DNA of 64,000 bases from Prosthecobacter debontii. Lineage in GTDB: Bacteria; Verrucomicrobiota; Verrucomicrobiia; Verrucomicrobiales; Verrucomicrobiaceae. Shown piece by piece: positions 47,602 through 49,293 of the stretch. Each line of letters opens with the position of its first letter. Positions within the stretch are counted from its first letter, which is position 1. A model generated the notes under the pieces. The model was not told the origin of the DNA. It ran no database searches and saw only the letters and a program-made list of their open reading frames with translations. Location of the stretch: contig NZ_FUYE01000014.1 in assembly GCF_900167535.1 (NCBI RefSeq), forward strand, positions 1 through 64,000. Reading direction: 5' to 3'. Position numbers and translations under genes: made by a program.

Positions 47602-47946
47602 ATGAAAAACCTCCTGCCTCTCCTCCTTCTCGCGATCGCCACCTGCGCCACTCAGGCTGCCGAACTGCACCTGAAGCCCGCTGACATCGAGCGCCTGGAA
47701 CTCAGACTCACCTATGAAACCAAACCGCAGGTGCGTGTCTATTTCCAAGGGGACAAATTGGAAGAGGTCCAAGACGTGGTCGAAAACAATCTGGGCAAAC
47801 CGATCTCGATCTACATGAACGAATCCTTGATCGTGGAGCCCACCCTCAAGGAACCGCTCAAGGCCAAGCTGCAATACCTGACCCTCACCTTCGCCGACTT
47901 TGCCACCGCAGCCCAAGTCGCCCGAGGTTTTGTGCCGACAAAGTAG
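47602..47946 (+). CDS. Exported SecD P1-head-like small protein
   Basis: From the ATG at 47602 the product is 114 residues: signal peptide (KNLLPLLLLAIATCATQAA) then YETKPQVRVYFQGDKLEEVQ and ENNLGKPISIYMNESLIVEP, which resembles the SecD/SecDF periplasmic P1 head (VGRRLAIVLDG-xVxxxP). It lacks the transmembrane part, so it is an orphan domain of unknown role. Its stop codon TAG (47944-47946) is part of the GTAG foot of the first REP unit, so the C terminus may have been reset by repeat insertion. Confidence 0.65.
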   Translation: MKNLLPLLLLAIATCATQAAELHLKPADIERLELRLTYETKPQVRVYFQGDKLEEVQDVVENNLGKPISIYMNESLIVEPTLKEPLKAKLQYLTLTFADFATAAQVARGFVPTK

Positions 47947-48399
47947 CGCCGTTGGGCTCCAACGGCTCAACGAACTCTCGCTCCTTCTCAAACCCAGTTG
48001 GAGCCCAACTGGACGACGATTGCTGCGCCAGCCCTCAAGTAGCGCCGTTGGGCCCCAACGGCTCAACGAACTCTCGCACCCTCTCTAACTCAGTTGGAGC
48101 CCAACTGGACGACGTTGCTGCGCCAGCCCTCAAGTAGCGCCGTTGAGCTCCAACGGCTCAATGAACCCTCGCATCTTCTCAAACCCAGTTGGAGCCCAAC
48201 TGGACTACGTTGCTGCGCCAGCCCTCAAGTAGCGCCGTTGGGCCCCAACGGCTCAATGAACTCTCGCTCCTCCTCAAACCCAGTTGGAGCCCAACTGGAC
48301 GACGATTGCTGCGCCAGCCCTCAAGTAGCGCCGTTAGGCTCCAACGGCTCAATGAACTCTCGCACCCTCTCTAACTCAGTTGGAGCCCAACTGGGCTAC
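47943..48399. repeat. REP/BIME array A (five units)
   Basis: Units of 95-96 bp start at 47943, 48039, 48134, 48229 and 48325. Each has GTAG then hairpin GCCGTTGG-GCT-CCAACGGC (47948-47966 in unit 1), a spacer, and an inverted hairpin CCAGTTGG-AGC-CCAACTGG (47994-48012) that in some units ends with CTAC, the reverse of GTAG. This is a bacterial interspersed mosaic element of two head-to-tail REPs. The array fills the gap between the SecD-like gene and the RAYT gene. Confidence 0.9.
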
Positions 48400-49073
48400 T
48401 TGGGAGCGCAACGAGGCTCCTGCTGCCCCTTACTCCACATCCGATACGAGCCCTCGCTTAACTTGGCTTTACCAGGATTATCGAGGATGTAACGACGAAA
48501 CTTCTCCAGGCTAGCTTCGCTACGCACAAGGTGATCGAAGCTTTCCCACTGCCAGAACTGTCCTACGCGATTCAACCGTTGGTTGATGCGTTTGGCTGTA
48601 TAGTTCTTCCAGTTCCGACACAGCGTCTTCAAAGCCCCGCGCCCTGGCACGCCGACCAAAACATGCACATGGTTAGGCATCACAACCCAAGCCTCCAGCT
48701 CATAGGGATGACCATTTTGATGCTGGAGATTTTCCGCAACGATTTCACTCACGTTCGGATCACGTAACACACACTCTCCGTGACAAGCATCCAGCATCCG
48801 ATGCCAACGCTCGGTATAGCGCCGGTAGAATTCTCGATGTTCGGCTTCAGGGAGTTTTTCAAGATCTCGCTGCCAATCCTCCTGGGCAGGATCAATGCCA
48901 TGGTCAGTCAACCACTGGCCTCGCTCTCTTAGCCATTGATCCAACACGGTTGCCGGAATCGAATCTGCCGTGCGCCAGGTCAGGAAGTAATAAGCATCCC
49001 GCTGCTCCCAATGCGGAAGGTTCCTCCGACTCACCTCCACGTCAGACGCTGGATCGAAAAAGTGGAACTTCAT
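48396..49073 (-). CDS. REP-associated tyrosine transposase (RAYT)
   Basis: From the ATG at 49073 the protein has 225 residues: LPHWEQRDAYYFLTWR at the start, YELEAWVVMPNHVHVLVGVP (HUH motif HVH at 135-137) and FRRYILDNPGKAKL with Tyr195, 58 residues after the motif, as probable nucleophile. This is the IS200/IS605-like TnpA_REP family that acts on single-stranded REP DNA. It lies between two REP arrays. Its stop codon (48396-48398) is made from the GTAG foot of the adjacent inverted REP. The open frame to 49244 runs through the array and is rejected. Confidence 0.92.
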   Translation of the reverse strand: MKFHFFDPASDVEVSRRNLPHWEQRDAYYFLTWRTADSIPATVLDQWLRERGQWLTDHGIDPAQEDWQRDLEKLPEAEHREFYRRYTERWHRMLDACHGECVLRDPNVSEIVAENLQHQNGHPYELEAWVVMPNHVHVLVGVPGRGALKTLCRNWKNYTAKRINQRLNRVGQFWQWESFDHLVRSEASLEKFRRYILDNPGKAKLSEGSYRMWSKGQQEPRCAPK

Positions 49074-49120
49074 GTCATGTCGAAAGTTATGAAGGGTCCG
49101 GCAGAGCGCAAGCGCCTCAA

Positions 49121-49293
49121 GTAGCGCCGTTGGGCTCCAACGGCTCAATGAACTCTCGCTCCTCCTCAAACCCAGTTGGAGCCCAACTGGACGACGATTG
49201 CTGCGCCAGCCCTCAAGTAGCGCCGTTAGGCTCCAACGGCTCAATGAACTCTCGCATCTTCTCTAACCCAGTTGGAGCCCAACTGGACTACTT
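49121..49293. repeat. REP/BIME array B (two units)
   Basis: Two units like array A start at 49121 and 49217 (96-bp period), with the same GTAG foot, CCGTTGG palindrome and inverted CCAGTTGG palindrome; the last one ends GGACTACTT (reverse GTAG at 49288-49291). The array lies upstream of the RAYT start and ends 54 bp before rlmI. Confidence 0.9.

Follow-up and report, generated by a model that had tools for sequence, protein, structure and literature searches.

A RAYT transposase gene embedded in an array of paired REPs, and the placement of its repeat family at stop codons

How REPs choose their sites, and why they are crowded at the 3' ends of genes, is an old open question. RAYT genes are bordered by REPs, stop codons adjoin REPs, and the vicinity of the rayt gene can be crowded with them (PMC2817692), and REPINs form tandem clusters in Pseudomonas fluorescens SBW25 (PMC3116915). 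REPs with a GTAG foot, according to one report, often provide a TAG stop and lie near gene 3' ends, their families including that of Opitutus terrae, in the Verrucomicrobiota (PMC3733652). The window studied here, that is, the whole stretch of 64,000 nucleotides of Prosthecobacter debontii that was analysed (NCBI RefSeq assembly GCF_900167535.1, contig NZ_FUYE01000014.1, positions 1 to 64,000), contains a gene of the RAYT type among tandem hairpin units, and both this gene and a small neighbour end in the TAG of a hairpin foot. Did the repeats determine where these proteins end, and what accounts for hairpins at stop codons? Since one repeat family occurs in many species, and other members of the genus are free of it, stop offsets can be read to the single nucleotide and protein ends compared before and after, which makes targeting versus selection directly testable.

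The features of the locus are collected in Table 1. The array is placed between a small gene downstream of rimO and an rlmI-like gene, and it consists of seven paired-hairpin units around the RAYT gene, which recur with a period of 95-96 nt; five of them span 47943-48399 and the other two 49121-49291.

Table 1. Features of the array locus, in coordinates of the window
Feature	Position	Strand	Remarks
Small SecD-P1-like gene	47602..47946	+	TAG stop (47944-47946) within unit 1 GTAG foot
Unit 1, paired hairpins	47943..48017	+	left GTAG, right CGAC (degenerate)
Unit 2	48039..48113	+	left GTAG, right CGAC
Unit 3	48134..48208	+	left GTAG, right CTAC
Unit 4	48229..48303	+	left GTAG, right CGAC; 99% identical to unit 6
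Unit 5	48325..48399	+	left GTAG, right CTAC = minus-strand TAG stop of RAYT (48396-48398)
RAYT / TnpA-REP type transposase gene, 225 aa	48396..49073	-	
Unit 6	49121..49195	+	left GTAG, right CGAC
Unit 7	49217..49291	+	left GTAG, right CTAC; outer end of the array

The 70-nt cores of the units are 89-99% identical among all seven. When one unit is folded as single-stranded DNA, two main hairpins are obtained (z = -4.3 versus shuffled sequences). The arrangement by which a REPIN or BIME is recognised, two opposed REPs with outward feet and a short spacer, is found at the level of the hairpin in 7/7 units, with both feet intact only in units 3, 5 and 7. That is, the left foot reads GTAG in 7/7 units, and the right foot reads CTAC in 3/7 and CGAC in the other four. 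An earlier note on this sequence had described seven units with paired hairpins, 95-96 bp spacing and GTAG feet; its description holds except for the second foot. Its label of 'SecD-like' for the small gene has some basis in a match to SecDF_P1_head, which is weak (E 0.00085) and falls below the cut-off of the model.

The units resemble one another in pairs (4/6 at 99%; 5/7, 1/4 and 2/5 at 96%), and the 180-nt blocks formed by units 4-5 and 6-7 are 97% identical direct repeats, one on each side of the RAYT gene. The gene thus sits in one inter-unit spacer. Most likely the array has grown by local duplication of single units or of two-unit blocks.

The 225-aa product scores 36.6 bits against Y1_Tnp (PF01797), above the cut-off of 23, and 77.2 bits against the NCBI model of REP-associated tyrosine transposases (NF047646; cut-off 80, E 1.1e-21). 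Its best solved relative is TnpA-REP of E. coli (4er8, E 0.0012). In the alignment to that protein HVH 135-137, Tyr195 and Asn199 fall at the catalytic positions, whose roles are as named in PMC6006769; the reading frame is open, and about 100 residues precede the core domain. The earlier claim of a RAYT accompanied by GTAG REPs in paired BIME/REPIN form is borne out. We consider it probable that the gene is a RAYT (TnpA-REP) lying within a tandem array of paired REPs of its own, and that the dispersed family to which these belong has come to lie at stops by near-silent insertion.

Eleven relatives of the RAYT, at 59-66% identity, were found on contigs labelled Verrucomicrobia or similar, one of them labelled Akkermansia. 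GTAG-footed REPs border the gene here and in all 11 relatives, with degenerate feet in some. The RAYT stop lies in or at a REP foot in 12/12 loci with a readable stop: nine have AAG-TAG in the foot, one has TAA followed by AGTAG, and two use the TAG of a degenerate foot. In the window the gene ends ...CAPK-TAG, with the TAG from the foot of unit 5. Since the coupling of foot and stop is found in every one of these loci, we take it to be an inherited feature of the element, an old shared trait. At six syntenic relatives the gene preceding RAYT also reads AAG-TAG, at the other REP of the RAYT. RAYTs of the same clade occupy several different genomic sites in the relatives, and one genome has two loci; most inner forks of the RAYT tree are unresolved.

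The small gene ends ...GFVPTK-TAG, with its TAG from the foot of unit 1. Its only detected orthologue, in the related genome G034 (66% identity), ends ...GFVPTN-TGA at the same length and has no REP there; the length is kept and the last residue changed. Judging from these two gene ends, the REP end and the stop codon appear to have changed together at constant protein length, through either a gain here or a loss in G034. The comparison applies to the gene end, the intergenic DNA being too diverged for an empty-site search at the nucleotide level; empty gene ends are seen at the protein level, in the small gene of G034 and in orthologues from repeat-free genomes. The earlier note was right that both stops lie in REP feet, the TAG of the small gene and the CTA at 48396-48398, which reads as TAG for the minus-strand RAYT. 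It went on to suggest that REP insertion set both C termini. For the small gene a stop codon supplied by the REP is upheld in part and a reshaped C terminus is not; for RAYT the suggestion is not supported, the coupling being inherited.

Two observations concern the neighbourhood of rimO. In G034 a three-unit array of REP pairs with a period of 143 (L024, 1804-2231) directly follows rimO, one gene from the site of the array in the window, and in another locus (L030) RAYT itself directly follows rimO.

The earlier note had called for a genome-wide search. A 26-nt REP pattern with ≤3 mismatches gave 7 matches in the whole 6.3-Mb genome, all at the array, versus 0 for the reversed pattern; by this measure there is no near-exact copy of the unit elsewhere. 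A covariance model of 31 nt, trained on 20 REPs drawn from the window and its relatives, gave 22 matches at E ≤ 0.1, comprising the array and about eight other sites, all diverged. It thereby corrects the impression, drawn from the exact-pattern search, that no other genomic copies exist. Three of the diverged sites adjoin gene stops, lying 1-3 nt after them; from their sequences we take the genes to encode S-adenosylhomocysteine hydrolase (TAA, 2 nt), a transporter-like protein (TGA, 1 nt) and ArgF (argF; TAA, 3 nt). Many genomes of the same genus have matches to the model, often at least 10-68 each, these counts being minima because limited candidates were scored per genome; ten members of the genus have none, nor were matches found in 21 genomes of other genera in the same order. 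Dispersal of the cognate REPs is therefore weak in this genome and strong in many others of the genus. The recent activity suggested by the earlier note is not borne out by units that differ by up to 11%, by second feet that have lost CTAC in 4/7 cases, or by the few and diverged copies elsewhere.

These same features could mean that the array is a relic, which arose and changed by ordinary unequal recombination or slippage, and that this species has a RAYT that no longer mobilises any DNA. The absence of near-exact copies elsewhere in the genome, the degenerate second feet and the blockwise likeness of units 4-5 and 6-7 all agree with such a history, which we regard as a serious possibility, somewhat short of an even chance. 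It sits less well with a RAYT frame that is open and retains its catalytic residues, with the several genomic sites of the clade and the genome with two loci, and with the REP that is present at the small gene here and missing in G034.

We turn from the window to the family. Every foot contains TAG, and one frame in three reads it as such; feet would therefore occasionally be in frame by chance, and the two stops of the window could be meaningless. A survey was made of 100 further regions around REPs, in which the best-scoring REPs were sampled and gene 3' ends were taken from a simple codon-bias caller. A gene 3' end lies within 250 nt of 138/204 outer feet. The TAG of the foot is itself the stop in 65 of these 138, and a further 34 have the stop 0-3 nt upstream of the foot. 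When the feet are collapsed to 86 gene families, the foot TAG is the stop in 31; in the others the distance from stop to foot is 0-3 nt (21 families), 4-40 nt (20) or more (14). We chose eight permitted positions, namely offsets 1-3 and five that are in frame and no more than a few codons from the old stop; 51/71 fall in these eight versus the 37 others (of 45), p = 2.7e-23. By comparison, only 9/9594 random sites from these loci have a permitted offset, and AAGTAG lacking a hairpin is a stop in 4/50 cases versus 35/113 for REP feet in the same loci. The offsets over the gene families, with both controls, refute chance for the family, and we hold it to be very improbable as an account of the window. 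Hairpins at stops are general in this repeat family, and not peculiar to the window.

REPs are about 12 times as dense at the stop as they are a few nt downstream. Tolerance of insertions alone does not explain this excess: either RAYT prefers such targets, or selection favours hairpins that are flush with stops. Under the latter alternative a hairpin flush with the stop would be useful, in protection of the mRNA 3' end or in termination of transcription or translation, and the position would reflect positive selection more than the insertion process. Two observations agree with such selection: REPs are denser at offsets -4 to +3 than a few nt downstream, where insertion should be equally harmless, and up to 5-7 species share a REP at the stop of the same genes. 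Yet some REPs of the family also lie far from stops, and many members of the genus lack the repeats while the same genes are intact. We therefore think selection for use possible, if rather doubtful, as the first cause of the placement.

In some convergent gene pairs (one pair in L090, L122, L202 and L213, which represent four species, and another in L146) a single REP pair provides both TAG stops, one in each foot, and makes up the whole of the spacer. Where both genes end on the feet of one element, the old spacer must have been minimal or lost.

We next consider what the placement costs the proteins. The C termini of 32 genes adjacent to REPs were searched in five repeat-free members of the genus, with tallies made by hand. 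For the 12 genes that use a foot TAG, the repeat-free protein ends no more than 4 residues from the REP stop in 44/45 comparisons, and no more than 1 from it in 31 (median +1); the one exception is a repeat-free orthologue that is 23 residues longer. Genes with their own stop before the foot likewise agree in length with repeat-free orthologues in almost every comparison. Creation of new C termini by insertion is rejected because of this agreement, and thus the hairpins have supplied stop codons without reshaping the C termini.

Some repeat-free orthologues (L247, L248, L249, L246, L258, L281 and L282) end in AAA-TAG or AAG-TAG where their relatives have a REP; such ends are either former REP sites or favoured targets. 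In L063 and L082, fragments of a gene's 3' end (...VQILPAK) stand in tandem downstream, in the stretch of up to about 260 nt that precedes the REP foot, the last ending AAG-TAG in the foot. L063 offers nearly a before-and-after pair, one copy of the gene tail reading GCC-AAA-TGA and a second, partial copy reading GCC-AAG-TAG followed by the REP. In both loci it is as if gene tails had been copied along with the repeat.

The preservation of protein ends can be understood from the ends of the element. Even among feet that lie away from stops, more than 90% have AA beside GTAG, and AA(A)GTAG is found at both ends of most two-REP elements, which usually read AA(A)GTAG...CTAC(T)TT. AA(A)GTAG thus belongs to the element; a one-sided target site is rejected as the origin of the conserved A's, because they are present at both ends. 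Of the 16 stops at offset 1, 15 are TAA, as predicted if a T is joined to the element's AA; TAA and TGA are represented equally at offset 2, as predicted if TA or TG is joined to the element's A. C termini are probably preserved, then, because the element's ends rebuild stops, with Lys-stop in one frame. The leftover part of the old stop that would be expected just past the element's far end was looked for and not found consistently, so that deletions or later changes at the junction must also occur.

The explanation we favour, near-silent insertion at stops, may be put as follows. RAYT would move or copy single-stranded REP hairpins. Where an element end lands at a gene 3' end, AAG-TAG would read Lys-stop in one frame, and in the other two frames a leftover T, TA or TG of the old stop would combine with the element's A's into TAA or TGA. 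An insertion flush with the stop would be nearly silent and would tend to be retained, and retained feet would become the stop codons of the neighbours, sometimes for both genes of a convergent pair. It is tempting, and we propose it only tentatively, to regard the AAAGTAG ends as a safe-landing device: a hairpin family that rebuilds the stop in every register, inserts preferentially at stops with proteins unchanged, and in some convergent pairs has replaced the whole spacer.

Much of this agrees with RAYT/TnpA-REP systems having GTAG REPs (PMC2817692, PMC8266576), in which a Y1 HUH protein, GTAG hairpins at gene borders, a RAYT stop beside a REP and, in some genomes, REPs crowded near rayt are found. 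Unlike in those systems, whole REP pairs in direct repeat here flank the gene on each side, AA(A) is conserved next to GTAG, the stop of the RAYT usually falls within the foot, and about 100 residues precede the core domain. As in SBW25 (PMC3116915), the unit is two inverted REPs with a spacer, and tandem clusters repeat the unit plus flank; unlike there, the RAYT gene stands between units of the array, and copies elsewhere in its own genome are few and diverged. The GTAG foot, the hairpin, the outward-footed pairs, the location at gene 3' ends and the supply of TAG are shared with the GTAG REPs of PMC3733652, the accessible part of which has neither per-gene offsets nor a comparison with repeat-free orthologues; in the present family the offset is sharp and C termini are preserved. 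Our search of the literature found no report of per-gene offset counts, of C termini preserved relative to repeat-free orthologues, or of extended AAAGTAG ends. The precision of placement, the preserved C termini and the extended ends are thus new, the supply of TAG by GTAG REPs being already published (PMC3733652). They show how a transposable element can provide ordinary genes with stop codons and leave the proteins almost unharmed.

Finally, other RAYTs of the same genome were ruled out as the source of the array, because their flanking repeats differ. A second RAYT (G000:C6:96559-97215, L019), 48% identical to the first, lies between direct repeats of about 210 nt that carry a different hairpin, GGTCCGCACACTCCGTGTGCGG, with 44 matches genome-wide versus 0 for the reversed control.
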